Shown: positions 48,813 to 63,652 of the stretch, piece by piece
Layout of the letters: every line of letters starts with the position of its first letter
How positions within the stretch are numbered: position 1 is the stretch's first letter
Assembly (NCBI GenBank): GCA_016806145.1
Contig: CP063166.1
Span: 5,084,001-5,148,000 of the forward strand
Direction: 5' to 3'
DNA: 64,000 nt
DNA from: Variovorax paradoxus
GTDB taxonomy: Bacteria > Pseudomonadota > Gammaproteobacteria > Burkholderiales > Burkholderiaceae_C
Position numbers and translations under genes: made by a program
The notes under the pieces: model-generated
What the model was told of the DNA's origin: nothing
Seen by the model: only the letters and a program-made list of their open reading frames with translations
The model's database searches: none

Positions 48813-51272
48813 TCATTCCACCTGCGATGGCATCACGGCCGTCACGGCGCGCAGGATCGACTCGCTCGTGGCGGGCGCGCGCAGCGGCGGATCGACGCGG
48901 TGGCCGCCCGCGGCCGACACGGCGTCGCGGATCGCGAAGAAGACCGAGAACGGCAGCAGCAGCGGCGGCTCGCCCACGGCCTTGCTGCGGTGGATCGAGT
49001 CCTCGAAGTTCTGGCCCTCGAACAGCCGCACGTTGAACACCGGCGGGCAGTCGTTGGCGGTCGGGATCTTGTAGGTGCTGGGCGCGTGGGTCGTGAGCTT
49101 GCCGCTCTGCGGATGCCACACCAGCTCCTCGGTCGTGAGCCAGCCCATGCCCTGGATGAAGGCGCCCTCGACCTGGCCGATGTCGACCGCCGGGTTCAGC
49201 GACTTGCCCGCATCGTGCAGGATGTCGGCGCGCAGCAGCTTCCATTCGCCGGTCAGCGTGTCGACGATCACCTCGCTGACCGCCGCGCCGTAGGCGTAGT
49301 AGTAGAACGGGCGGCCCTGCATCTTGTCCTTGTCCCAGCTCAGGCCGGGCGTGGCGTAGAAGCCGTCGGACCACAGCTGCTTGCGGTCGAGGTAGGCCTC
49401 GCCCACCACCGTGCTGAAGGCCAGCGTGCGGCCGTTGACCTCGACCTTGTCGTTGGCGAAGCGCACCGCGCCGGGCTCGCCGCCATGGCGCTCGGCCGCG
49501 CTCTGCGCCAGCCGCTCGCGGATCTGGCGCGCGGCGTCCTGCGCGGCCTTGCCGTTGAGGTCGGCGCCGGTCGAGGCCGCCGTGGCCGAGGTGTTCGCGA
49601 CCTTGGTCGTGTCGGTGGCCGTGACGCGCACGCGCTCGAAGCTCACGCCGAGCTCGTGCGCCACCACCTGCGCCACCTTGGTGTTCAGGCCCTGGCCCAT
49701 CTCGGTGCCGCCGTGGTTCACGAGGATCGAGCCGTCGGTGTAGACGTGCACCAGCGCGCCGGCCTGGTTGAAGTGCTTGACGTTGAACGAGATGCCGAAC
49801 TTCAGCGGCGCCAGCGCCAGCCCGCGCTTGAGCACCGGGCTCGCGGCATTGAAGCCGGCGATCTCCTCGCGCCGCGCGCGGTAGTCGCTCGTGGCCTCGA
49901 GCTCGGCCACCAGCTCGTGCACGATGTTGTCGGTCACGGTCTGGCGGTAGGGCGTCACGTTGTTCTCGCCCTTGCCGTAGAAGTTGACGCGCCGCACGTC
50001 GAGCGGATCGCGGCCCAGCGCGCGCGCCACCGAGTCCATGATGTTCTCGATCGCGATCGCGCCCTGCGGGCCGCCGAAGCCGCGGAAGGCCGTGTTGCTC
50101 TGCGTGTTGGTCTTGCCCGAGTAGCCGTGCATGCTGACGTTGGGCAGCCAGTAGGCGTTGTCGAAGTGGCACAGCGCGCGCGTCATCACCGGGCCCGACA
50201 GGTCGGCCGAATGGCCGGCGCGCGAGACCATGGTGATCTCGGCGCCGAGCAGGCGGCCCTCGTCGTCGTAGCCCACCTCGTACTCGTACCAGAAGCAGTG
50301 GCGCCGGCCCGTGACCATGAAGTCGTCGTCGCGGTCCAGCCGCAGCTTGACCGGGCGGCGCAGCTTGCTCGCGGCCACCGCGGCCACGCAGGCGAACAGC
50401 GCCGACTGCGATTCCTTGCCGCCGAAGCCGCCGCCCATGCGCCGGCACTCGACGTGCACCTCGTTCGACTGCAGGTGCATCGCGTGCGCGACCAGGTGCT
50501 GCATCTCGCTCGGGTGCTGGGTCGAGCAGTGGATGTGCAGCGCGCCGCCCTCCTTCGGGATCGCGTAGCTGATCTGGCCCTCGAGGTAGAACTGCTCCTG
50601 CCCGCCGACGTCGAGCGTTGCCTTGTGGCGGTGCGGCGCGGCCGCGATGGCGGCGCGCACCGCGGCCTCGTCGCCGCCGTTGGCGGCACCGCCGCTGCGC
50701 ACGATGTGCATCGGCGGCACCACGTACTGGCCGCGCGCATGCGCGTCCTGCGGCGTGAGCACCGGCGGCTGCGCCTCGATGGTCAGCGCGTCCTTGGCGC
50801 GCGCGGCGGCGCGGCGCGCGGCGTCGCGGGTGCGCGCGATCACGGCGAACACCGGCTGGCCCAGGTAGCGGATCTCGCCGCCGTCCTTGAGCGACAGCAG
50901 GATCGGGTCGTCGTGGATGATCGAGCCGCAGTCGTTGGTGCCGGGGATGTCGTCGGCCGTGAGCACCGACACCACGCCCGGCATGGCGCGGATGGCGTCG
51001 AGCGACAGCGCCGTGACGCGCCCGTTGGCCGCGGGCGACAGGCCCAGCGCGCAGTGCAGGGTGCCGGCGATCTCGGGGATGTCGTCGATGTAGGTGGCCT
51101 CGCCGGCCACGTGCAGGTGCGCCGATTCGTGCGGGCGGCTGATGCCCACGCGCGCGCCCTGGTCGTGGGCGAGCGCCTCGGCACCCTGGTCGATGCGGGC
51201 GGCGGTGTTCTTCAGGTAGTCGGCAAAGGCCTCTGCGGGTTGCAGCAGGCGGGCATCGAGGGGCTTGTTCAT
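48813..51272 (-). CDS. xdhB: Xanthine dehydrogenase molybdopterin subunit XdhB
   Basis: An 819-residue subunit that hydroxylates hypoxanthine and xanthine to urate. The Moco-binding motifs are present: GGGFGGKE, FRGFGGPQG, HGGTEMGQG, and the active-site glutamate segment KAVGEPPLLLPFSVFFAIRDAV. SD AAGGAG is 9 nt before the ATG at 51272 and directly follows the 265-bp palindromic element. It pairs with XdhA upstream; no xdhC chaperone gene follows in this window. Confidence 0.97.
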   Translation of the reverse strand: MNKPLDARLLQPAEAFADYLKNTAARIDQGAEALAHDQGARVGISRPHESAHLHVAGEATYIDDIPEIAGTLHCALGLSPAANGRVTALSLDAIRAMPGVVSVLTADDIPGTNDCGSIIHDDPILLSLKDGGEIRYLGQPVFAVIARTRDAARRAAARAKDALTIEAQPPVLTPQDAHARGQYVVPPMHIVRSGGAANGGDEAAVRAAIAAAPHRHKATLDVGGQEQFYLEGQISYAIPKEGGALHIHCSTQHPSEMQHLVAHAMHLQSNEVHVECRRMGGGFGGKESQSALFACVAAVAASKLRRPVKLRLDRDDDFMVTGRRHCFWYEYEVGYDDEGRLLGAEITMVSRAGHSADLSGPVMTRALCHFDNAYWLPNVSMHGYSGKTNTQSNTAFRGFGGPQGAIAIENIMDSVARALGRDPLDVRRVNFYGKGENNVTPYRQTVTDNIVHELVAELEATSDYRARREEIAGFNAASPVLKRGLALAPLKFGISFNVKHFNQAGALVHVYTDGSILVNHGGTEMGQGLNTKVAQVVAHELGVSFERVRVTATDTTKVANTSATAASTGADLNGKAAQDAARQIRERLAQSAAERHGGEPGAVRFANDKVEVNGRTLAFSTVVGEAYLDRKQLWSDGFYATPGLSWDKDKMQGRPFYYYAYGAAVSEVIVDTLTGEWKLLRADILHDAGKSLNPAVDIGQVEGAFIQGMGWLTTEELVWHPQSGKLTTHAPSTYKIPTANDCPPVFNVRLFEGQNFEDSIHRSKAVGEPPLLLPFSVFFAIRDAVSAAGGHRVDPPLRAPATSESILRAVTAVMPSQVE

Positions 51273-51288
51273 GGTCTCAGACTCCTTG

Positions 51289-51553
51289 GAACGTGTTCAT
51301 GATCTTTTCATGGCGCCCGCGAGGCAGCAAAGCGTCGCAATCTAGGCGCGCGCCGCCGTCCAGGCTGATGCCTGGACAAGGTGCGCAACGACGAGTGCGG
51401 CGCTTTGCTGCCTCGCCCGAAGGGTTGCCCCGCAAAGCTGGCATCTGCGGCGTTGCAAATGCTCGCCGGGCCACCAGCCCGGCTGCGCTTTGCGCCTTGC
51501 ACCTGCCAGCTTTGCGGGGCAACGGGCGCCATGAAAAGATCATGAACACGTTC
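51289..51553. repeat. 265-bp element with 31-bp terminal inverted repeats and two internal hairpins (family C)
   Basis: The ends 51289-51319 and 51523-51553 are perfect 31-bp inverted repeats (starting GAACGTGTTCATGATCTTTT). Inside are a 16-bp perfect hairpin (51319-51334 with 51401-51416) and a 20-bp perfect hairpin (51424-51443 with 51504-51523). It fills nearly the whole xdhA-xdhB gap; the xdhA TAA abuts the left end and the xdhB SD abuts the right end. Features of a non-autonomous mobile element; no target duplication visible. Confidence 0.9.
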
Positions 51554-53197
<1,644 letters not shown>

Positions 53198-53262
53198 GCT
53201 GTCGTGCTCGTGGGGTGGCGCGTGGTGGCCAGGCCTGGACGTTAGCGGCTTGCGCCGCCGCA

Positions 53263-53307
53263 CGCATACCGTGGTGCCCATATTGCGTATGCAGGGCCCG
53301 GTATGCG
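53263..53307. promoter_or_regulatory. CGCATACC/GGTATGCG inverted repeat upstream of xdhA
   Basis: CGCATACC (53263-53270) and GGTATGCG (53300-53307) are perfect 8-bp arms with a third half-site GCGTATGC at 53285-53292 between them. The region is 66-110 nt upstream of the xdhA start. Fits a LysR-type array of half-sites; regulator not proven. Confidence 0.4.
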
Positions 53308-53397
53308 ACGTACGGGGAAACCCTGGATTCGCGGCAATTCTCGTGCCATGGGGGCCCGGGCGCCATGGCCGCGCCGAAAAACGAGCCTTGCGCCCGC

Positions 53398-54708
53398 TCA
53401 ACCGCCGGTGCCGTGCACCAGCCGTTCGAACACGTCCTGCGACCCCATCTGCCCGCCCTTGAGCATGATCTCGACCCCGTCGAGCCCCGGCGCCTCGCTG
53501 TGCAGCCGGCACAGCGCGGTGCCGGGCGCGAGTTGCGCGAGGTAGGACAGCCCCCAGGCGTCGAGCGCGCCCACGGCGAGGCTGGAGGTGTCGCCGCCGG
53601 CCACGCCCACGCGCGACAGCGGCACGGCCGCGAGCACGCGCGCCAGCAGTTCGCCGCCGGCCTCGGCCAGCGCGCGCGCGGGCACGCGGGTGTGGCCGGC
53701 GCGCGCGGCCTCGGTGGCGGTGCAGGCCAGCACATGGGCGCCGGTCGAGAGCCGGTCGGCCAACTCGCGCGCGGACTGCGCCAGGTGATCGGAATGGGGG
53801 TCGACCAGCCGCGCCGCGTCGAGCCAGACGACCTCGAAGGACCGCGCGGCCGCCACCTGCCGTGCCGTGACCGGCGAGAGGCTGCCGGCCAGCACGAACA
53901 CCGGGCCGCGCGCGGGCGCCACGGCGGCCGGCGCCGCGGGCGCCTGCGCCAGCCGCGGCGCGAAGGCCTGCACCACGCTGCTCGGGCCGACGGCCAAAAG
54001 CGGCGCTTCGGCGGTGGCGAGCGGCCACAGCGCCGCGCCGATGGCCTCGAGGTCCTCGGGCCGCGCGACGTCGAACAGCACGGCCTCGGGCCGCTGGTCC
54101 AGCACGGCGGCCAGCGCCTCGCCCGTCGCGGCATGGCGCGGATACGGCAGCAGCGCGGTCTCGCCCAGGCCCTGCGCCTGAAGGTGCAGCCGCAGGTCCG
54201 ATTCGCGCATCGGCGTGACCGGATGGCGGCTCATGGTCGGATGGCGGTCGATGCGGTGCACCGTGCCGCCGCTGCCGGCCGCGGCGAACAGGTGGCCGAA
54301 CAGGCAGTAGCGCTCGAGGTTCGGCTGGCCGCCGACGATCGCGGTCCAGGGCTGGCCCGCGGCGGGGCGCAGCGCCTCGATGGCGACGGCGATGTTGCCG
54401 ACACCGGGCGCGCTGTCGAAGGTGGAGCAGGTCTTGTAGTGCAGCACGCGCGCGCCGAGTCCGGCCATCAGCCGCGCGACCGGCGCGAGCTCGGCACGCA
54501 TCGCGTCCGGCGCCATCGAGCGCGCCGCGCCCGCGATGCCGAGGCAGTCGAGCGGGCCGGCGCGCGCGAGCAGCGCCTCGTCGGGCACGCGCAGGAACAG
54601 CAAGGTGCGCAGCCCGGCACGCGCCGCGGTGGCGAGCGTGTCGGTGGCGCCGGTGAAGTCGTCGCCGTAGTAGGCGAGCGGCACGGGCGTGCTCGCTGCC
54701 ACGCTCAT
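53398..54708 (-). CDS. DUF1537 four-carbon acid sugar kinase (OiaK/OtnK-like)
   Basis: A 436-residue kinase. The N-terminal sugar-binding domain begins AYYGDDFTGATDTLATAARAG, the family signature; the C-terminal nucleotide domain has VAGGDTSSLAVGAL and LKGGQMGSQDVFERL. DUF1537 enzymes phosphorylate sugar acids such as threonate, erythronate, 2-oxo-tetronates or 3-oxo-isoapionate. Its ATG overlaps the RuBisCO-like stop by 4 nt. In known apiose pathways OiaK supplies the substrate of an RLP, so this pair is likely consecutive in a pathway. The exact sugar acid is inferred only. Confidence 0.92.
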   Translation of the reverse strand: MSVAASTPVPLAYYGDDFTGATDTLATAARAGLRTLLFLRVPDEALLARAGPLDCLGIAGAARSMAPDAMRAELAPVARLMAGLGARVLHYKTCSTFDSAPGVGNIAVAIEALRPAAGQPWTAIVGGQPNLERYCLFGHLFAAAGSGGTVHRIDRHPTMSRHPVTPMRESDLRLHLQAQGLGETALLPYPRHAATGEALAAVLDQRPEAVLFDVARPEDLEAIGAALWPLATAEAPLLAVGPSSVVQAFAPRLAQAPAAPAAVAPARGPVFVLAGSLSPVTARQVAAARSFEVVWLDAARLVDPHSDHLAQSARELADRLSTGAHVLACTATEAARAGHTRVPARALAEAGGELLARVLAAVPLSRVGVAGGDTSSLAVGALDAWGLSYLAQLAPGTALCRLHSEAPGLDGVEIMLKGGQMGSQDVFERLVHGTGG

Positions 54709-55994
54709 TTGGCGCCGAAGAAGGCCAGCGCCTGCGCCAGCTCCGGCGCCTCGCGCGCGGCCTCGGCCACCGGCACGCCCGCGCGCGCCGCGGCCCAGGC
54801 CTGGCGAATGCTCGCCACGCCCGCGGCCGCGCCGCCCGGATGGGCCAGGATGCCGCCGCCCGACATGAACAGCAGGTCGTCGCTGCCGACCGCGGCCCAG
54901 GTCGGCGCCACGGTGCCGGCCCACTGGCCCGAGGAGAAGGCGGGCATCACGCGATCATCGAAAGCCCCCTCGCCCGCCACCAGCGGCGCCAGGCAATCGC
55001 GCGCCGACTCGATCACTTCCTCGTCGGGCTGCGAGAACTTGCCCTGCAGCCCGTGCACGTGCATGTGGTCGACGCCGGCCAGCCGCCACAACGCCTGGTA
55101 GGCCTGGAACGAGATGCCCAGCAGCGGATGGCGCGACAGCGCGCCGTAGCCGTTGCGGTGGCCGTGCAGTGCCAGCGGCGTGTGGCGCCGCAGCGTCTGG
55201 ATGCCCGAATGGCCGCACCAGTTGAGGCTGGCCATCACGCAGCTGCCGCCCTCGCGCTCGACCAGGTCGGCATGGCGCTTCATGGCGTCGGTCTCGTCGG
55301 TGATGTTGAAGGCCACCATCACCTGCTTGCCGGTGCGCTGCGCATGGTCGCGCACCACCGCCATCACGGCCGGCACGCGCTCGGCCAGCGGTGCATGCAG
55401 CGGATCGGCCGAGACCTCGTCGTCCTTGATGAAGTCCACGCCGGCGGCGCACAGCCGCGCCACCAGCTCGGCGGTCTGCGCGGCCGAGAAGCCGACGTTG
55501 GGCTTGATGATGGTGCCCACCAGCGCGCCCGTTTCCACGCCGGTGGCGCGGCGGGTGCCGGCCACGCCGTGGCTCGGCCGCTCGAACTGCGCGCGGTAGG
55601 CCGCGGGCAGCTGCAGCGATTCGAGCCGCAGCCCCGTGACCTCGCCGAGGTCGTAGAGGTTGCCCGCGACCGTGGCCGCCAGCGTCGGCAGGTTGGCGCC
55701 GATGTTGGCGACGGGAAAGGAGATGTCGACCAGCGCGCGCCGCCACGGCCCGCGCCGGCCCTGGCGCTCGAGCAGCGCATTGGGCAGGCTGGGCGCCGCG
55801 GCCGGCTCGAGTTCGGCGATGGCCTCGACGGTGGCGCGCGCCCGCGCGCGCAGGTCGTCGGTCTCGCCCTCGACGCGCGTGAAGGTGCCGCACGACTGCT
55901 CGCCCGCCATCACCTCGGCCACCGCGGCCGGCTCGAGCGGCGTCTCGATGCGGTAGCGCGCGCGGATGCGCTGTTCTGCCTGCGCCATCGTCAT
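54705..55994 (-). CDS. Form-IV RuBisCO-like protein (OiaX/OiaT-like)
   Basis: A 429-residue RuBisCO-fold protein. Counting from the ATG at 55994: K164 in TIIKPNVGF (position of RuBisCO K175; K177 is replaced by Asn), the carbamylatable lysine K190 with D192 and E193 (FIKDDEVSADP), HGHR at 277-280, K319 (position of loop-6 K334), and SGGG at 378-381. H298 is replaced by Tyr. Carboxylation is therefore unlikely, but metal-dependent enolisation/decarboxylation is plausible. The VOC stop and this ATG share one base. Together with the DUF1537 kinase the family match favours 3-oxo-isoapionate-4-phosphate chemistry. Confidence 0.93.
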   Translation of the reverse strand: MTMAQAEQRIRARYRIETPLEPAAVAEVMAGEQSCGTFTRVEGETDDLRARARATVEAIAELEPAAAPSLPNALLERQGRRGPWRRALVDISFPVANIGANLPTLAATVAGNLYDLGEVTGLRLESLQLPAAYRAQFERPSHGVAGTRRATGVETGALVGTIIKPNVGFSAAQTAELVARLCAAGVDFIKDDEVSADPLHAPLAERVPAVMAVVRDHAQRTGKQVMVAFNITDETDAMKRHADLVEREGGSCVMASLNWCGHSGIQTLRRHTPLALHGHRNGYGALSRHPLLGISFQAYQALWRLAGVDHMHVHGLQGKFSQPDEEVIESARDCLAPLVAGEGAFDDRVMPAFSSGQWAGTVAPTWAAVGSDDLLFMSGGGILAHPGGAAAGVASIRQAWAAARAGVPVAEAAREAPELAQALAFFGAK

Positions 55995-56533
55995 CAGAGC
56001 TTCGACAGGTCGGGGAAGGGCCGCACCGGCTCGCTGCCGTCCCAGCCTTCGGAGGCCGCGCGGATCAGGTCGAACATCTTTCCCTTCGGCCCGGCCACTT
56101 CCGACAGCTCGATCACGGTGCCCGGGTGGTATTCGGTGTCGAAGTAGATGAAGCGGCCGCGCTCGCCCACCTCGCCGCTCATCACCGGCTTGAAGCCCTG
56201 CGCCGTGAGGCGCGCGAGGTCGGCGTCGTAGTCGGCGGTCCAGTAGGCCACGTGCTGCAGGCCGGTGCGGCCCGCGCGCAGGAAGTCGCGGTACATCGAG
56301 GGCACGTCGTTGCGGGTCTGGATCAGCTCGACCTGCACATAGCCCGAGTTGGCCAGCGCCACCGAGTTGTGCGGCTCGTGCGCCTCGCCGTTGTAGCGGT
56401 AGTTGCGGATCGGCACCTTGGGGTTGTAGAACCAGGGACCGACGCCGAGCTCGCGGCTCCAGTAGTCCATGGCGGCCTCGATGTCGGGCACCACGTAGCC
56501 CAGTTGGCGGATCTCGCCGAGGAATCGACTCAT
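55994..56533 (-). CDS. VOC-superfamily protein (glyoxalase/epimerase-like)
   Basis: A 179-residue vicinal-oxygen-chelate protein with two beta-alpha-beta-beta-beta modules: LGYVVPDIEAAMDYWSRELG and LQHVAYWTADYDADLARL. Metal-binding candidates are the His in LQHVAYW and the Glu in GTVIELSE. Such enzymes act as epimerases, lyases or dioxygenases through a metal. It sits between the TRAP permease and the RLP in an operon with overlapping stops and starts. This VOC is not a member of the apiose modules I know, so it may define a variant step. Confidence 0.88.
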   Translation of the reverse strand: MSRFLGEIRQLGYVVPDIEAAMDYWSRELGVGPWFYNPKVPIRNYRYNGEAHEPHNSVALANSGYVQVELIQTRNDVPSMYRDFLRAGRTGLQHVAYWTADYDADLARLTAQGFKPVMSGEVGERGRFIYFDTEYHPGTVIELSEVAGPKGKMFDLIRAASEGWDGSEPVRPFPDLSKL

Positions 56534-56564
56534 TTTCTTGCGCGCTCCGTTGTGCGTGTTGTTG

Positions 56565-58466
56565 TCAGACTTTGAGAAAACCGGTGGAGAACCACGGGAT
56601 CGCGGCGACCAGCACCAGCCCCGCGAGCAGCGCGGCCATGTAGCCCCAGATGTGGCGGATGCCCTCGTCGGGATCGACCTTGCTGACGGCGCAGGCGCCG
56701 TAGTAGCCGACGCCGAAGGGCGGCGCGAACAGGCCGATGCCCATCGCGAAGATCACGACCATGGCGTAGTGCACCTCGTGCACGCCGGCCGCCTTGGCGA
56801 TCGGGAACAGGAGCGGGCCGAACAGCACGATGGCCGGAATGCCCTCGAGCACGCTGCCCAGCACGATGAAGGCCACGATCGAGACCGCGAGGAAGCCATA
56901 GGCGCCGCCCGGTATGCCGGCCATGAGCTTCGCGAGGTCCTGCGAGAAGCCCGACTGCGTGAGTCCCCAGGCCATGGCGGTGGCGCAGCCGACGATGAAG
57001 ATGATCGCGCCCGAGAGCGACGCGGTCTCGACCAGCATCGGGCGCAGCCGGCGCCAGTCGAACTGGCGGTAGATCAAGAGGCCGACCAGCGCCGAATAGA
57101 CGATGCCGATGGTCGAGACCTCGGTGGCCGTGGCCACGCCCTCGACCACCGCGGCGCGGATCACGAAGGGCAGCAGCACCGCGGGCAGCGCGACCCCCAG
57201 CAGCTTGCCGATCTCGCGCGCGCCGTGGCGCTTCACCTGGCTCAGGTCCTCGCGGCGGTAGCGCCACCAGACCACCACGCAGAGCATGGCGCCGAGCACC
57301 ACCGCGGGCATCAGGCCGCCGGTGAACAGCGCCGCGATCGAGATGCCGGTGACCGAGCCGATGGTGATCAGCACGATCGAAGGCGGGATGGTCTCCGTCT
57401 GCGCGCCCGTGGCCGACAGCAGCGCCACCAGGTCGCCGGGCTTGGCGCCGCGCTTGGTCATCTCGGGGAACAGCACCGGCGCGATGGCCGCCATGTCGGC
57501 GATCTTCGAGCCCGAGATGCCCGAGATCAGGTACATGGCGCCGATCAGCACGTACGACAGGCCGCCGCGCACATGGCCCAGCAGGCTTGCCAGGAACTGG
57601 ATCATGGCGCGCGCCATGCCGGTCATCTCGATCAGCGCGCCGAGGAAGATGAACAGCGGCACCGCCAGCAGGATCAGGTGCGACATGCCCTCGTCGAGCC
57701 GCCCCACCATCACCAGCATCGGCGTGCGCGTGGTCAGCGCCAGGTAGCCGAAGGTGGCGAGCGCGAACGAGAACGCGATCGGCACGCCGGCGAACACGGT
57801 GAAGGCCACCACGCCGACGAAGAAGATCAGCAGGTTGAGCTTGCCCAGCGGCGCCAGCACCGGCCCCGCGAGCCAGAAGGCGGCCACCAGCGCCACGGTG
57901 CCGAGCGCGGCCACGGCGATCTGCCGCACGGTGCACACGCGCAGCAGGCGCAGCAGCGCCACCACCCCCATCAGCGCGATGCCCGCGGGGATGGCCGAGG
58001 CGCGCCAGGCATTGCTGATCTCGAGCGCGGGCGTGACGACGAAGGACTCCTCGTGCGCGTAGTCGATGGCCGGCCAGGCCACCAGCGCCAGGAAGGCCAC
58101 CGAGGCCGTGATGGCGAAGGTGTCGAACAGCGCGCGCGTGTCGGGCCGCAGCCGCGCCACGAAGGCGGTCATGCGCATGTGCTCGCCGCGGCGCAGCGCC
58201 ACCACGGCGCCGAGCATCGACAGCCACAGGAACAGGATCGAGGCCAGCTCGTCGGACCACACCAGCGGCGCATGGAAGGCATAGCGCGCCGTGACGCCCG
58301 CGAACAGCACCACGATCTCGGCCAGCACCAGCAGCGCGGCCAGCGATTCCACCGTGCCGCCGAGCCAGCGGTCGAGGCGGCCGGCCAGCGGCGCCAGCGC
58401 GTTCGGATGGGCCGCGGCGGCGCCACCGGGGGCGAGCGCGTCGGCGGGAAGCACGTGCGAGGACAT
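56565..58466 (-). CDS. TRAP transporter fused DctQM permease
   Basis: A 633-residue fusion. Residues about 30-200 are the four-helix DctQ part (LDRWLGGTVESLAALLVLAEIVVLF) and the remainder is the 12-helix DctM part (FFVGVVAFTVFAGVPIAFSFALATFGYLAL, SGISGSKIADMAAIAPVLFPEMTKRG). It moves the substrate with Na+ in the inner membrane. It starts 9 nt after the TRAP receptor stop. Confidence 0.94.
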   Translation of the reverse strand: MSSHVLPADALAPGGAAAAHPNALAPLAGRLDRWLGGTVESLAALLVLAEIVVLFAGVTARYAFHAPLVWSDELASILFLWLSMLGAVVALRRGEHMRMTAFVARLRPDTRALFDTFAITASVAFLALVAWPAIDYAHEESFVVTPALEISNAWRASAIPAGIALMGVVALLRLLRVCTVRQIAVAALGTVALVAAFWLAGPVLAPLGKLNLLIFFVGVVAFTVFAGVPIAFSFALATFGYLALTTRTPMLVMVGRLDEGMSHLILLAVPLFIFLGALIEMTGMARAMIQFLASLLGHVRGGLSYVLIGAMYLISGISGSKIADMAAIAPVLFPEMTKRGAKPGDLVALLSATGAQTETIPPSIVLITIGSVTGISIAALFTGGLMPAVVLGAMLCVVVWWRYRREDLSQVKRHGAREIGKLLGVALPAVLLPFVIRAAVVEGVATATEVSTIGIVYSALVGLLIYRQFDWRRLRPMLVETASLSGAIIFIVGCATAMAWGLTQSGFSQDLAKLMAGIPGGAYGFLAVSIVAFIVLGSVLEGIPAIVLFGPLLFPIAKAAGVHEVHYAMVVIFAMGIGLFAPPFGVGYYGACAVSKVDPDEGIRHIWGYMAALLAGLVLVAAIPWFSTGFLKV

Positions 58467-58475
58467 GGGTGACGC

Positions 58476-59513
58476 TCAGGCCAGCTTGCCCACGGCCTCT
58501 TCGAGCAGCGCCCAGGCCTCGGGGCCGAAGCGGCCCTTCCACTCGCCGTAGAAGCCCGAGTCGCGCAGCTTGGCGCGGAAGCTGTCGGCCGCCGGGCGGT
58601 TGATGGTCAGGCCCTTGGCCTGCAGGTCGCCCACCACCGACTCGTTGAGCTTGCGGATGTCCTCGCGCTGCTGCAGGCCGGCCTCGTTGATGGCGCGCGC
58701 GACGACGGTCTTGAGGTCGGCGGGCAGCGCGTCCCAGGCGCGGCCGTTGGCGATGAACCAGTAGCCGTCCCAGATGTGGTTGGTGAGCGAGCAGAACTTC
58801 TGCACCTCGAACAGCTTGGCGACCTGGATGATCGGCAGCGGGTTCTCCTGCGCGTCGACGATCTTCGTCTGCAGCGCCGAGTAGACCTCGCTGAACTGCA
58901 GGCTCGCGGGCGCGGCGCCCAGGCCCTTGAACATCGAGATCGACAGCGGGCTCACAGGCACGCGGATCTTCAGGCCGTCCATGTCCTTGGCGGTGGCGAC
59001 CGCGGCCTTGCTGCTCGTGGTCTGGCGAAAGCCGTTGTCCCACATCTTCTCGAACGCATAGAGGCGCGACTTGGCGATCGCGCCGCGCACGTGGGCGCCG
59101 AGCTTGCCGTCCATCGCGGCCCAGACCTGCTTGTAGTCGGCGAAGGCGAAGCCCACCGCATTGATCGCGGCCACCGGCACCAGGGTGGCGATCACCAGCG
59201 CCGAGGGCGTGAAGAACTCGATGCCGCCCGAGCGCACCTGGGCCAGCATGTCGGTGTCGCCGCCGAGCTGGTTGTTCGGGAAGATCTTGATCTCGACCCG
59301 GCCGTTGGTTTCCTTGGCGATGCGGTCGGCCGCCTCCTGCGCGCGAATGTTCAGCGGATGGCTCAGCGGCAGGTTGTTGCCGTACTTGTACGAGAACTCC
59401 GCCGCGCGGGCCGTGCGCGGCAGGGCCGAGAACACGCCGGCGGCCGGAACGGCCGCGATGGCGGGAAGGGCGGACAGGGTGCGAATCGCGCTGCGGCGGG
59501 TGACCGGTGCCAT
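58476..59513 (-). CDS. TRAP transporter periplasmic receptor (DctP type)
   Basis: A 345-residue receptor with a long signal peptide containing a twin-Arg (TRRSAIR). The mature domain has GNNLPLSHPLNIRAQEAADRI, GRVEIKIFPNNQLGGDTDML and DGLKIRVPVSPLSISMFKGLGA; the Arg in KIRVPVS is the usual carboxylate-binding residue. SD GGAGA lies 6 nt before the ATG at 59513. First gene of the operon, divergent from LacI; ligand is probably a sugar acid. Confidence 0.94.
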   Translation of the reverse strand: MAPVTRRSAIRTLSALPAIAAVPAAGVFSALPRTARAAEFSYKYGNNLPLSHPLNIRAQEAADRIAKETNGRVEIKIFPNNQLGGDTDMLAQVRSGGIEFFTPSALVIATLVPVAAINAVGFAFADYKQVWAAMDGKLGAHVRGAIAKSRLYAFEKMWDNGFRQTTSSKAAVATAKDMDGLKIRVPVSPLSISMFKGLGAAPASLQFSEVYSALQTKIVDAQENPLPIIQVAKLFEVQKFCSLTNHIWDGYWFIANGRAWDALPADLKTVVARAINEAGLQQREDIRKLNESVVGDLQAKGLTINRPAADSFRAKLRDSGFYGEWKGRFGPEAWALLEEAVGKLA

Positions 59514-59544
59514 GCTGTGTCTCCGTTGTTTGGATGATGCGAAT

Positions 59545-59554
59545 TGATGCATCA
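59545..59554. promoter_or_regulatory. TGATGCATCA palindrome, candidate LacI operator
   Basis: A perfect 10-bp palindrome in the 112-nt gap between the TRAP receptor and lacI-type gene, 32-41 nt upstream of the receptor ATG. The A/T-rich surrounding sequence (ATTGATGCATCATTGATTG) is the most AT-rich part of the locus, as expected of a divergent promoter. LacI-family binding is inference. Confidence 0.35.
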
Positions 59555-59625
59555 TTGATTGAATTTCCTCGAAGATATAGGCCTCACCCTGTACCGTCAA
59601 ACTACGGCTTGATGGTTTTTGATGT

Positions 59626-60699
59626 ATGCGGGTTAACCCTTCAAACAAATCCTCCGAGCCGGCCGATGGCACCGCGGCACGCGCCACCGTGGCCGACATC
59701 GCGCGCACCGCGCAGGTCTCGACCGCCACCGTCGACCGCGTGCTCAACAAGCGCCCCGGCGTGCGCGACGCCACCGTGCAGCGCGTGCTCAAGGCCGCCG
59801 CCGAGCTCGGCTACCTGCCCGAGCGCGACCTCTACGCGGCACTGGCGCCGCGGCCGCTTCGGCTGGTGTTCCTCTTGCCCAGCGGCACCAACCGCTTCAT
59901 CCGCATGCTCGGCGACATGGTCGGCTACGCGCAGGAGCACTGGGCGCCGTTCAACGTGGTGTGCCGCACCGAGCTCACCGAGAGCTTCAACCCCGAGGCG
60001 CTGGCCGCCGCGCTGCTGCGCCTGGGCGGGCGCTGCGACGGCATCGCGATGATGGCGCTCGAGCATCCGGCCGTGCGCGAGGCCGTGGCCGCGCTGGCCG
60101 CGCGCGGCGTGCCGGTGGTGACGCTGATCTCGGACCTCGCGAACTCGCAGCGCGCGGCCTACATCGGGCTGGACAACCGCGCCGCCGGCCGCACCGCGGG
60201 CTACCTCATCGGCCGCTTCATCGGAGCGCGCGCCGCCAAGGTCGCGCTCATCGCCGGCAGCCTGCGCTACAGCGCGCACCAGGAGCGCGAGGCCGGCTTC
60301 CTGCAGGTGATCGACGAGATGTTCGAGCCGCTGCAGGTGGTGGGCCTGCGCGAGGGCCAGGACGATGCCGACAAGAACTACCGCCAGACCCGCGCGCTGC
60401 TCGAGCAGCATCCCGAGCTCGCGGGCATCTACAACATCGGCGGCGCCTCCGACGGCGTGGCGCGCGCGCTCAAGGAAGCGCAGCGCGACCAGAAGGTGGC
60501 CTTCATCGGCCACGGCCTCACGCCCGACACGCGCGCGCTGCTGATCGACGGCAGCATGGACGCGGTGATCACGCAGAGCCCGCATGCGACCTTGATGAGC
60601 TGCGTGCGCATCTTCACCAACCTGCGCGAGGGGCGTGACGTGCTCAGCGGGGTGGAGACGACGCGCAGCGTGGTGATCTTTCGCGAGAACCTGCCCTGA
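59626..60699 (+). CDS. LacI-family transcriptional regulator
   Basis: A 357-residue regulator. The HTH is VADIARTAQVSTATVDRVLNKR and the hinge KAAAELGYLP; the effector domain has LRLVFLLPSGTNRF, DGIAMMALEHPAVR and HGLTPDTRALLIDG. It is divergent from the TRAP/RLP operon and should bind a sugar-acid intermediate. The initiating ATG at 59626 is about ten residues upstream of the conserved HTH start; a later start is possible. Confidence 0.92.
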   Translation: MRVNPSNKSSEPADGTAARATVADIARTAQVSTATVDRVLNKRPGVRDATVQRVLKAAAELGYLPERDLYAALAPRPLRLVFLLPSGTNRFIRMLGDMVGYAQEHWAPFNVVCRTELTESFNPEALAAALLRLGGRCDGIAMMALEHPAVREAVAALAARGVPVVTLISDLANSQRAAYIGLDNRAAGRTAGYLIGRFIGARAAKVALIAGSLRYSAHQEREAGFLQVIDEMFEPLQVVGLREGQDDADKNYRQTRALLEQHPELAGIYNIGGASDGVARALKEAQRDQKVAFIGHGLTPDTRALLIDGSMDAVITQSPHATLMSCVRIFTNLREGRDVLSGVETTRSVVIFRENLP

Positions 60700-60702
60700 G
60701 CC

Positions 60703-61632
60703 TCAGCGCTCGGCGCGGCCCGCGCGCTCGGCGAACAGCTCCGCGATCACCTGCCGCAGCCAGCGGTTCGCGGGGTCGGCCTCGAAGCGCTTGCTCCAGT
60801 GCAGCGACACCGTGAAGTCGCGCAGCGGAAACGCCGGCTCGACGATCGCGTAGCCGCCCTCCTGCGCGAAGCCGCGCGCGATGTTGCGCGGCATCACCAC
60901 CGCGAGGTCGGTGGCGCGCACGATCGCCGGCAGCACCATGAAGTGCTCGGTGGTCAGGCGAACGCGGTCCTCGAGGTTCAGCAGCTGCAGGATGCGCAGG
61001 GTCTCGGCATGGGTGCGCACCGCCACGTACTCGAGCGTCTGCAGCGCCTCGATCAGCGCCTGGCTGGTGCGCCGGCCGCGCGCGAACGGATGGCCCTTGC
61101 GCAGCAGCACGATGTAGCGGTCCTTGAGCAGGTACAGGCGCTGCGTGTCGCGCACCTTGGGCAGGAAGCCGAAGGCGAAGTCGACGCGGCCGCTGTCGAG
61201 CGCGGGCGCGATCTCGCCGGGCGCGAGCGGCAGCGTCTCCACGCGCACGCCGGGCGCGAGCTCGCCGAGCCGTGCCATCAGCGCGGGCAGGAAGCGGCCC
61301 TCGCCGATGTCGCTCATGTGGATGCGGAACACCTTGCGCGAAGCCTTCGGCTCGAAACGCGCGGGCTCGTGCAGCGCCTCCTCGAGCAGCGCGAGCGCGG
61401 CCTGCACGGCGGCCGCGAGGCGCTCGGCGCGCGGCGTGGGCGCCACGCCGCCGGGGGCGCGCGTGAACAGCGCGTCCTTCAGCAGCAGCCGCAGCCGGCC
61501 CAGGCCATGGCTGGCCGCGGGCTGGGTCAGCCCCAGCGACTCGGCGGCACGGCTCACGCTGCGCGCGCGGTAGACGGCATCGAAGAGACGCAGCAGGTTG
61601 AGGTCTATGGTTTCAATATGCATGCCGTTCAT
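60703..61632 (-). CDS. LysR-family transcriptional regulator
   Basis: A 309-residue LysR protein with HTH VYRARSVSRAAESLGLTQPAASHGLGRLR and a normal effector domain. It ends 3 nt from the convergent lacI-type gene. The ATG at 61632 (or 61623) is next to a TCGCTTA direct repeat. It is divergent from the PQQ-type dehydrogenase gene and is the likely regulator of that two-gene unit. Confidence 0.93.
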   Translation of the reverse strand: MNGMHIETIDLNLLRLFDAVYRARSVSRAAESLGLTQPAASHGLGRLRLLLKDALFTRAPGGVAPTPRAERLAAAVQAALALLEEALHEPARFEPKASRKVFRIHMSDIGEGRFLPALMARLGELAPGVRVETLPLAPGEIAPALDSGRVDFAFGFLPKVRDTQRLYLLKDRYIVLLRKGHPFARGRRTSQALIEALQTLEYVAVRTHAETLRILQLLNLEDRVRLTTEHFMVLPAIVRATDLAVVMPRNIARGFAQEGGYAIVEPAFPLRDFTVSLHWSKRFEADPANRWLRQVIAELFAERAGRAER

Positions 61633-61746: not shown

Positions 61747-62964
61747 ATGGCCAGACTGCGTCCGCATTCGATGTCAGCGGTGCTCGCGACCCTTGCAACC
61801 TCCCTGCTCCTCGCGGCCGGCGCCGCCTGGGCCCAGCAGCCGCCCACCGAGGAGCCCGGCTGGGCCAAGGGCCGGCCGAAGAACGACGCGGCCACGCGGC
61901 TGGCGCCCGTGCCTTCGTTTCCCATCCCCACCGCGGCCGACCAGCTGCCCACCGCCAGGTTCAAGCTGCCGCCGGGCTTCAAGGTCGAGACCTGGGCCTC
62001 GGGCGTGCTCGATGCGCGCTCGCTGCGCCAGGGCGCCAAGGGCACGGTGTTCGTGAGCACGCTGTTCGTCGGCAACAAGGTCTATGCCATTGCCGAGAAG
62101 GGCGACCGCAAGCCGAAGACCATCGTCGACAAGACCGAGTTCGCCACCGGCATCGAATTCCACAAGGGCGCGCTCTACCTCGCCACGCACAAGCAGATCC
62201 AGCGCTACGACGGCATCGAGGACAAGCTCGACAACCCGGGCCAGCCGGCGGTGATCTACGACAAGCTGCCCGGCGGCCAGGACCACAGCTGGCGCTACCT
62301 GCGCATCCGCGACGAGAAGCTCTACTACGCGGTCGGCGCGCCCTGCAACCTCTGCGAGCCCGACGACGCGCATGCGCGCATCTTCCGCATGAACCTAGAC
62401 GGCAGCGGCATCGAGACCATCGCGCGCGGCGTGCGCAACACGGTGGGCTTCGACTTCGATCCGAAGACCGGCAACCTCTGGTTCACCGACAACGGGCGCG
62501 ACTGGCTCTCCGAGGACCTGCCCAACGACGAGCTCAACGTGGTGACCAAGGCCGACCAGCACTTCGGCTATCCGTACTGCCACCAGGGCAACATCCTCGA
62601 TTCGGAATTCGGCTGGGGCAAGAGCTGCGCCGACTACGTCAAGCCCGCCGCGCTGCTGGGCCCGCACGCCGCGGCGCTGGGCATGACCTTCTATCAGGGA
62701 AAGATGTTCCCGGCGAAATACCGCGGCGCGATGTTCATCGCACGCCACGGCCCCTGGAACCGCACCACCCGGTACGCCGACATCGCGGTGGCCTGGCCCG
62801 ACGGCAAGGGCGGCGCGAAGGTCGAGCCCTTCATGACCGGCTTCGTCGAGAACAACACCTACCTGGGCCGGCCGGTGGACTTCCTGGTGCTCAAGGACGG
62901 CTCGATGCTGGTGAGCGACGACCACGCGGGTGCGATCTACCGCATCAGCTACGGCGGCAAGTGA
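61747..62964 (+). CDS. PQQ-dependent sorbosone dehydrogenase-like protein
   Basis: A 405-residue periplasmic six-bladed propeller dehydrogenase of the glucose/sorbosone dehydrogenase family. The signal peptide ends AGAAWA before QQPP. Propeller motifs are FKLPPGFKVETWASG, LWFTDNGRDWL, FIARHGPWNRTTRYAD and SMLVSDDHAGAIYRISYG. It probably oxidises an aldose or aldehyde with PQQ and gives electrons to the adjacent cytochrome c. SD AAGGAGA lies 6 nt before the ATG. Paired cysteines (CNLC) are an extra detail of this branch. Confidence 0.9.
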   Translation: MARLRPHSMSAVLATLATSLLLAAGAAWAQQPPTEEPGWAKGRPKNDAATRLAPVPSFPIPTAADQLPTARFKLPPGFKVETWASGVLDARSLRQGAKGTVFVSTLFVGNKVYAIAEKGDRKPKTIVDKTEFATGIEFHKGALYLATHKQIQRYDGIEDKLDNPGQPAVIYDKLPGGQDHSWRYLRIRDEKLYYAVGAPCNLCEPDDAHARIFRMNLDGSGIETIARGVRNTVGFDFDPKTGNLWFTDNGRDWLSEDLPNDELNVVTKADQHFGYPYCHQGNILDSEFGWGKSCADYVKPAALLGPHAAALGMTFYQGKMFPAKYRGAMFIARHGPWNRTTRYADIAVAWPDGKGGAKVEPFMTGFVENNTYLGRPVDFLVLKDGSMLVSDDHAGAIYRISYGGK

Positions 62965-62974
62965 GGCGCGCCGG

Positions 62975-63652
62975 ATGACGAGGCACACGGCGATGGCGGC
63001 GATGGCGGCGACGGTGGCGATGCTGTGGGCACTGGCCCTGCCCGCGTTCGCGCAGGCGACCAAGGGCGCGCAGCCCAAGGCCGCGCCGGCGGCGGCATCG
63101 GGCGCCAAGGTCTATGCCGAGCGCTACGCCGCGCTGTGCGCCGCCTGCCATGGCGCCGACGGCCGCAGCGAGATGCAGGGCGTGCCCTCGCTCGCGGGCC
63201 AGCATTCGTTCTACGCGATCACGCAGCTGTTCCTGTTCCGCGAGGGCCGGCGCGCCAACGAGGCCATGACCGCGGTCGCCAAGACGATGAAGGACGAGGA
63301 CCTGCGCGGCTTCTCCGACTTCATCGCGACGCTGCCCGCGCTGGCGCCGGCCGCCGCCTCTGCCCCGCCCGACGCGGCACGCATGGCGCGCGGCCAGGCG
63401 CTCGCGCAGGAGAACCGCTGCGTGATCTGCCACGGCGCCGACCTGAGCGGCGGCCAGCAGGTGCCTCGCATCGCGCACCAGCGCGAGGAGTACCTCGCGC
63501 TCACGCTGCAGGAGTTCCGCAGCGGCAAGCGCCCGGGCTACACACAGGCGATGGGCGAGGCCGTGGGCCGCATGGCGCCAGAAGACCTCGACACCCTCGC
63601 TTACTACGTGGCGCGTTTTCCCACCGCACCGCCCAGGCCCGGCGGCAAATAG
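62975..63652 (+). CDS. Dihaem cytochrome c (c4-like)
   Basis: A 225-residue periplasmic cytochrome. Signal peptide ends ALPAFAQ. Two haem sites are present: CAACHGADG and CVICHGADL, each in a class-I domain with a Met ligand candidate. It starts 10 nt after the dehydrogenase stop and is its likely electron acceptor. The ATG at 62975 matches the signal peptide; an alternative GTG upstream is not favoured. Confidence 0.9.
   Translation: MTRHTAMAAMAATVAMLWALALPAFAQATKGAQPKAAPAAASGAKVYAERYAALCAACHGADGRSEMQGVPSLAGQHSFYAITQLFLFREGRRANEAMTAVAKTMKDEDLRGFSDFIATLPALAPAAASAPPDAARMARGQALAQENRCVICHGADLSGGQQVPRIAHQREEYLALTLQEFRSGKRPGYTQAMGEAVGRMAPEDLDTLAYYVARFPTAPPRPGGK

Follow-up and report, generated by a model that had tools for sequence, protein, structure and literature searches.

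What reaction might a RuBisCO relative perform when it is encoded between a sugar-acid kinase and an enzyme of the VOC superfamily? This question is raised by a locus in a 64,000-nucleotide stretch of Variovorax paradoxus DNA (contig CP063166.1, positions 5,084,001 to 5,148,000, hereafter the window), which belongs to a genome of 9.44 Mb in 3 contigs. Many form-IV relatives of RuBisCO have no assigned function. In the window, a LacI gene stands divergent from a tight operon encoding DctP, DctQM, a VOC enzyme, a form-IV RuBisCO-like protein (RLP) and a DUF1537 kinase. All six genes of the layout described in the initial annotation, with their overlapping or near-overlapping starts, are present: the kinase and RLP genes overlap by 4 bp and the RLP and VOC genes by 1 bp, and the remaining neighbours in the operon are 31 and 9 bp apart, with the starts of kinase and DctP chosen among in-frame candidates. 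We found that the locus is a real, portable module of the kinase and form-IV RLP kind, and that its new features are an RLP clade of its own, an active-site signature of its own and a constant VOC partner. The features are as follows.

53398-54708, minus strand: DUF1537 acid-sugar kinase (SBD_N and NBD_C domains), OiaK-like, under the OiaK cut-off (Pfam; NCBIfam NF042436)
54705-55994, minus strand: form-IV RLP, own clade (Pfam, NF042437, 3nwr, trees, residues)
55994-56533, minus strand: VOC-superfamily enzyme (Glyoxalase_4), probable isomerase/epimerase (Pfam; invariant Q10, E69, H94, E142)
56565-58466, minus strand: DctQM, fused TRAP transporter permease (Pfam DctQ and DctM)
58476-59513, minus strand: DctP, TRAP substrate-binding protein (Pfam)
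59572-59600, minus strand: sigma-70-like promoter of the operon, TTGACG-17-TATCTT (consensus scan)
59610-59624, minus strand: conserved motif CATCAAAAACCATCA, probable LacI-type regulator site, just upstream of the -35 box
59626-60699, plus strand: divergent LacI-family regulator (Pfam LacI and Peripla_BP_4)

A scan of named genomes with the window RLP returned at least 567 RLP loci, the best 80 of which were analysed, with neighbours identified by tblastn. The kinase gene lies downstream of the RLP gene in all 80, the VOC gene lies directly upstream in 79 of the 79 assessable loci (the 80th, L028, has no upstream DNA), and the divergent LacI gene is found in all 77 loci that reach far enough (L028, L066 and L080 have 0, 2096 and 2403 bp upstream, respectively). 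The VOC, which had been considered an unusual operon member, thus proved to go constantly with a distinct RLP clade. Sequence identity to the window across the loci is 49-73% for the kinase versus 70-97% for the VOC (79 loci), making the kinase the fastest-changing part. Hosts include Variovorax, Polaromonas, Acidovorax, Bordetella, Castellaniella, Pandoraea, Azospirillum, Bosea, Ancylobacter and Roseomonas, and the same gene order was seen in the 8 plasmid records examined, out of 19 with a VOC of at least 68% identity, including Paracoccus, Sulfitobacter, Paroceanicella and Neorhizobium. The module has apparently spread horizontally.

To avoid selection by RLP alone, a sample of 299 genomes from the family (the window's own included) was searched with the VOC and, separately, with the RLP at E of at most 1e-40. 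A VOC of at least 66% identity occurred in 14 of them, a module-type RLP (at least 64%) in the same 14, and the two genes adjoin in every one, the window's own genome included. Three weaker VOCs (51-53%) in this sample had no RLP within 1.5 kb on either side, and 22 other family genomes with only 49-56% RLPs gave no VOC match. Because the VOC-RLP adjacency recurs in every assessable locus and in all 14 genomes, the gene arrangement exceeds chance; the co-occurrence of VOC, kinase and RLP outside the window, for which the initial annotation had called, is near absolute. The distribution is patchy, not universal; across 274 genomes sampled from the class, an RLP above 54% identity was found only in the window's own. 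Among the 14 family genomes, the RLP was matched with one inner stop in G457 and as two pieces in G355. In the latter (locus L155), the pieces cover residues 8-232 and 229-427, lie ~55 residues apart and share a single open frame of 520 codons, which would mean an insertion in a gene that either still works or is decaying.

The RLP carries the RuBisCO_large and RuBisCO_large_N domains (Pfam) with replaced catalytic residues in the alignment, and is therefore a form-IV RLP. In a 61-row tree, in which 19 of the 80 loci were hand-picked for spread, 28 module RLPs form one clade with 100/100 support, separate from four OiaX rows (100/100; names from plasmid annotation) and six OiaT-labelled rows (100/97; JGI names). 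The module remained separate, again at 100/100, in a 28-row tree with MtnW and another RLP; both trees were midpoint-rooted and their deep order is uncertain. The nearest named relatives of the window RLP are from Variovorax. Its identity is 53% to the OiaT-labelled proteins, 43-45% to OiaX, 32-33% to RuBisCO-type rows (genome matches recognised by K177 and, in three of four, by H298) and 27% to MtnW. The likeness to OiaX and OiaT proposed in the initial annotation thus holds better for OiaT, yet the module RLPs are a clade of their own. Membership of RuBisCO forms I-III could be dismissed (TIGR03326, 223.7 bits against 497.45; K177 and H298 replaced), as could identity with MtnW (TIGR03332, 118 bits against 513.6; the RLP lies outside the branch of the one MtnW included). 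Neither of the two outcomes named in the initial annotation as refuting it, such a clustering or a lack of VOC-kinase-RLP co-occurrence, was observed. The same results make it very improbable that the RLP is an MtnW-like enolase or isomerase and the VOC the carbon-skeleton enzyme, even though the VOC is strongly conserved and MtnW is described as tautomerising its substrate (PMC6302742). The module RLP also keeps the carbamate and CO2-handling residues, which argues against such a role.

To characterise the active site, we aligned 81 module RLPs (80 loci and the window), with RuBisCO positions given in spinach numbering. The window RLP has K190 at K201, D192/E193 at D203/E204, the HGHR motif and loop-6 K319 at K334; it carries N166 in place of K177, Y283 in place of H298 and H314 where RuBisCO has Gly329. 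These assignments agree with those of the initial annotation as far as it went, which had listed the retained residues together with Asn for K177 and Tyr for H298. Those two replacements are not private changes: position 177 is N in 81/81 sequences and position 298 holds either Y (47 sequences) or F (34), while position 329 is H in 81/81, all three being positions that lie near the substrate in RuBisCO. K175, K201, D203, E204, H294, R295, H325, H327, K334, G403, G404 and N123 are kept in all 81, and E60 in 80, the remaining row being gapped there. N177 alone occurs also in a Natronosalvus RLP and two outgroup RLPs, and the combination of N177, Y/F298 and H329 was found in no non-module row of the RLP tree.

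Comparison with the apiose-type enzymes separates two sets of positions. All six OiaT-labelled proteins keep E60, N123, H325 and H327 and carry S177, W298 and N329; all four OiaX proteins carry D60, G123, Q325, Q327, W298 and N329, with A or S at 177. The module RLPs share E60, N123, K201, D203, E204, H325, H327 and K334 with the six OiaT-labelled proteins, apart from the row gapped at position 60, and the OiaX residues D60, G123, Q325 and Q327 occur in none of the 81, with the same gap. Assignment as OiaX was therefore rejected on the basis of these residues, the separate clades and an NCBIfam score of 432.3 bits against a cut-off of 700 (NF042437; an annotated OiaX scores 780.2), and assignment to the OiaT clade was rejected on the basis of its separate branch and of N, Y/F and H in place of S177, W298 and N329. 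The RLP may perform OiaT-like chemistry on a different substrate. Because it keeps four residues that are lost in OiaX and kept in the OiaT-labelled proteins, cleavage to 3-phosphoglycerate and a two-carbon acid would be likelier than plain decarboxylation. The latter would make the RLP an OiaX-type enzyme that acts after the kinase and yields a tetrulose phosphate for housekeeping enzymes, and we consider it unlikely. In its favour, the NCBIfam models that score highest are OiaX for the RLP and OiaK for the kinase, although no OiaT model was among the outputs, so that this preference may reflect library content; on the other side stand the low score, the separate clade and the missing OiaX residues, and the module holds no ketose-phosphate isomerase gene.

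The closest solved structure to the RLP is PDB 3nwr (651 bits over residues 5-428), from an organism that we take to be Burkholderia fungorum; its molecule name, 'A rubisco-like protein', gives no function. Since the aligned stretch holds all three clade markers (KPN, HRNGY and HMHVHG), 3nwr is probably a member of the module RLP clade.

The kinase likewise resembles, but does not reach, its apiose-pathway counterpart. Its best NCBIfam model is OiaK (NF042436), at 303.1 bits against a cut-off of 700, a threshold that the kinases from two loci of apiose type likewise miss (479 and 575). In the D-apiose pathways, reportedly described by Carter and colleagues in 2018 (cited in PMC6302742), the kinase OiaK works with either the decarboxylase OiaX or the transcarboxylase/hydrolase OiaT. 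The module is like these pathways in that a DUF1537 kinase adjoins a form-IV RLP that keeps the carbamate site and the loop-6 Lys. It is unlike them in its separate RLP clade (N166, Y/F283 and H314), in the scores of kinase and RLP below the OiaK and OiaX cut-offs, in its constant VOC, its LacI and its TRAP or amino-acid-type ABC (ATP-binding cassette) uptake, and in that the genome yielded no oxidoisomerase candidate. The candidate family for apionate oxidoisomerase, PF16896 (PGDH_C), had no match in the whole genome, whereas the same search did match three plasmid records annotated with it and genome G202, lending support to the variant sugar-acid pathway of the apiose/OiaK type, lacking this enzyme, that had been proposed initially. 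Two further DUF1537 kinase genes stand elsewhere in the genome in other gene settings (neighbours read from unscanned sequences), and a threonate/erythronate pathway was set aside for this reason.

The VOC enzyme belongs to the VOC superfamily by its match to PF13669 (Glyoxalase_4; 95 bits against a cut-off of 27). All 80 aligned VOCs (79 loci and the window) carry Q10, E69, H94 and E142, which recur in six more distant relatives and thus mark a wider VOC subfamily, not the module alone; relatives at 42-53% identity occur in other gene settings. We take a Q/E/H/E metal site to be the glyoxalase I pattern, as opposed to the two-His-one-Glu site of VOC dioxygenases. The pattern favours the VOC as a proton-transfer isomerase or epimerase, and is compatible with the isomerisation or epimerisation step put forward in the initial annotation, the role itself being one that we infer. 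The module VOC shares the Glyoxalase_4 family with VOCs of the glyoxalase I and methylmalonyl-CoA epimerase type, and differs from them in forming a subfamily tied to the module RLP; identification as methylmalonyl-CoA epimerase was rejected (TIGR03081, 25 bits against 114.95). Among PDB sequences, 3gm5 alone matched at E 0.001, and single-sequence structure prediction gave a pLDDT of 37.6. One speculative idea, to which we give little credence, is that the VOC takes over from the NAD-dependent apionate oxidoisomerase as a redox-free alpha-ketol (acyloin) isomerase. It would move a hydroxymethyl or carboxylate group from one carbon to the next in an imported branched acid of the 2- or 3-oxo type and feed a RuBisCO-like transcarboxylase, perhaps to recycle branched acids descended from plant RuBisCO chemistry. 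A two-enzyme rearrangement-and-cleavage route of VOC and RLP was not found described in the literature searched.

In contrast to this core, the uptake part of the module varies. The window encodes a complete TRAP transporter (DctP receptor, DctQ and DctM, all detected by Pfam). A DctP at 62-92% identity to the window's is present in 68 of the 80 loci; nine others (L014, L019, L025, L027, L032, L039, L042, L043 and L066) carry instead an ABC receptor at least 77% identical to that of L014, which is of the amino-acid type (Pfam SBP_bac_3), the receptor of L077 is unrelated (28%), and the type could not be judged for L028 and L080. L074 has no space for DctQM between DctP and VOC. A short-chain dehydrogenase/reductase (SDR) gene, its products at least 78% alike, lies between LacI and DctP in 12 of the 80 loci. 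In a 57-row DctP tree (45 of the 80 loci, the window, ten plasmid-record receptors and 4oan), the 13 receptors with an SDR, one of them plasmid-borne, group at 100/100 together with just one SDR-less receptor, that of L030, and five Rhodobacterales receptors and L077 make up a separate receptor kind. When the SDR receptors were compared with 34 SDR-less rows (leaving out L030, L077 and the five Rhodobacterales rows), 22 positions fixed to at least 90% on both sides differed, such as W252 to H, and at 18 positions all 13 carry a common residue unlike that of the SDR-less majority. This hints that the SDR-type receptors bind another ligand, although linkage of neighbouring genes could explain the pattern without function. 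The SDR was dismissed as a missing general pathway step, being adjacent in just 12 loci and tied to one receptor clade. As importer types vary while VOC, RLP and kinase stay constant, these three are the core of the module, and the uptake part is swapped among TRAP, a second TRAP type with SDR, unrelated TRAPs and an amino-acid-type ABC importer.

The nearest solved entry to the window DctP, by both sequence and fold, is PDB 4oan (64% identity over 308 residues), the TRAP receptor RPB_2686 of Rhodopseudomonas palustris HaA2; the predicted DctP structure, of middling quality (pLDDT 63.9), was used only to find such entries. We take the ligand of 4oan to be 2-acetolactate, a 2-C-methyl 3-oxo acid, and the SDR-less receptors match 4oan at W252, S104 and N118. 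These two points would suit a module substrate of the 2-C-methyl-3-oxo-tetronate type, from plant or aerosol methyltetrols, with cleavage to 3-phosphoglycerate and acetate. We regard this substrate as highly unlikely, since the ligand of 4oan is itself presumed, the residues in common may be ancestral and no upstream pathway was identified. According to PMC5812351, 2-acetolactate is among the TRAP ligands found by Vetting et al.; the literature searched on the receptor ligand and on branched acids otherwise yielded background alone.

Taken together, our leading interpretation, offered tentatively and at somewhat less than even confidence, is that the module is a self-contained catabolic unit for a 2-C-branched 3-oxo-tetronate-type acid (3-oxo-isoapionate or a close relative) that ends in OiaT-type cleavage by the RLP. 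As substrate, a 2-C-branched 3-oxo acid is probable, and the VOC would act on it as an isomerase. The receptor and the TRAP permease would import the acid; the VOC would isomerise or epimerise it, and the DUF1537 kinase would phosphorylate its terminal CH2OH. The RLP may then follow OiaT-type chemistry, in which CO2 is lost to leave an enediolate and is added back at the adjacent carbon before hydrolysis. The predicted products, 3-phosphoglycerate plus a two-carbon acid (glycolate, for example), could enter central metabolism without further dedicated enzymes, as expected from the absence of PGDH_C from the genome and of any isomerase or aldolase gene from the module. In its favour stand a VOC-RLP-kinase core that stays constant behind changing importers, all those seen being of TRAP or amino-acid ABC type; the greater closeness of the RLP to OiaT-labelled proteins than to OiaX, together with its E60, N123, H325 and H327; OiaK as the best model of the kinase; and the match of DctP to 4oan with its presumed 2-C-methyl 3-oxo ligand. 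Several points weigh against this interpretation. RuBisCO itself has the residues that the RLP retains, so that they may reflect inheritance and are no proof of chemistry; the RLP departs from OiaT at positions 177, 298 and 329, which leaves room for another substrate or step; the tree rows for OiaX and OiaT were proteins so labelled by databases, not those studied by experiment; and 4oan, whose ligand is presumed, lies outside the module's receptor clade.

It is distinctly unlikely that the module serves a branched acid with six carbons, for instance hamamelonate (2-carboxy-D-arabinitol), and that its RLP works like the counterpart in the D-hamamelose pathway, for which an oxygenase activity is described. 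The window's module holds neither a sugar or lactone dehydrogenase nor a lactonase, and DUF1537 kinases are known for action on four-carbon oxo acids. In favour of this substrate, the D-hamamelose RLP step gives 3-phosphoglycerate and glycolate (Kim et al. 2018, as cited in PMC8914248), and leaves make 2-carboxy-D-arabinitol (PMC9833046).

Control of the operon is likely to lie with the divergent LacI regulator, which would act through the CATCAAAAACCATCA site as its operator. A consensus scan of 53150-60800 found one promoter, compared with a mean of 0.4 in shuffles. The 13-base core of the motif was searched in 78 stretches (77 loci and the window) and occurs exactly in 46, with at most one mismatch in 62, at most two in 69 and at most three in 77; random stretches gave 33/1560 at two or fewer mismatches, a control that may contain the true site. 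In the 9.44-Mb genome the motif has only one exact copy, one copy with a single mismatch and seven with two, the reversed control pattern giving four. Because only one exact copy exists, the regulator is probably local, and no wider LacI regulon was found in the genome, where the best other site, with one mismatch, lies among genes reading as unrelated. Where LacI regulators usually have a palindrome, the motif shows CATCA in direct repeat. No 16-base palindrome with one mispair or fewer was present in the stretch tested from the window, and an inverted repeat at 59533-59556, holding TGATGCATCA, is an alternative candidate regulator site.

Beyond the module, a two-gene xanthine-dehydrogenase-like molybdenum enzyme lies right after the kinase at 48813-53197, and genes for a LysR regulator and a transporter come next. 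The molybdenum-enzyme genes are outside the module and are present only in a few close Variovorax relatives (L016 and L018, and in part L003 and L020). On the other side, past the LacI and LysR genes, a glucose/sorbosone-dehydrogenase-like protein (PF07995) and a cytochrome c, possibly together a periplasmic oxidase, are encoded at 61747-63652, with the same neighbours in L018. Both groups were ruled out as module parts, their neighbourhood not being conserved. In Azospirillum brasilense (L112, 1-1232), genes for a beta-keto acid cleavage enzyme (BKACE) and acetolactate synthase lie near the module.

RLP and kinase genes were also seen together in other settings. A haloarchaeal RLP-DUF1537 kinase pair (L117, 7983-10707) stands beside an unrelated small VOC and genes resembling those for racemases, SDRs and cupins, and further haloarchaeal plasmids also carry an RLP. 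A Bacteroidota pair on a Rufibacter plasmid (L133, 5995-9320) stands with an aspartate/glutamate-racemase-family gene, and pectinesterase and glycoside hydrolase genes nearby hint at plant cell-wall substrates. Two RLP-kinase loci with an SDR and a 4oan-like TRAP receptor (L135, 4276-11768, which also has an alpha/beta hydrolase, and L116, 5996-13861) have no VOC annotated nearby; their RLPs are weakly sister to the module clade in the 61-row tree, and a further branched-acid pathway is possible there.

No description of a VOC-RLP-kinase operon was found in the literature searched, from which subscription papers were mostly missing. With the present analysis, an RLP clade that probably includes the functionally unnamed 3nwr gains a near-absolute genetic partner, the VOC, together with a kinase and a receptor, and its substrate and reaction thereby become accessible with a handful of purified proteins. 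If OiaT-type cleavage is true, the module would add to the natural examples in which CO2 is removed and added back in the manner of RuBisCO without serving carbon fixation, which would be useful for tracing the origin of RuBisCO chemistry.

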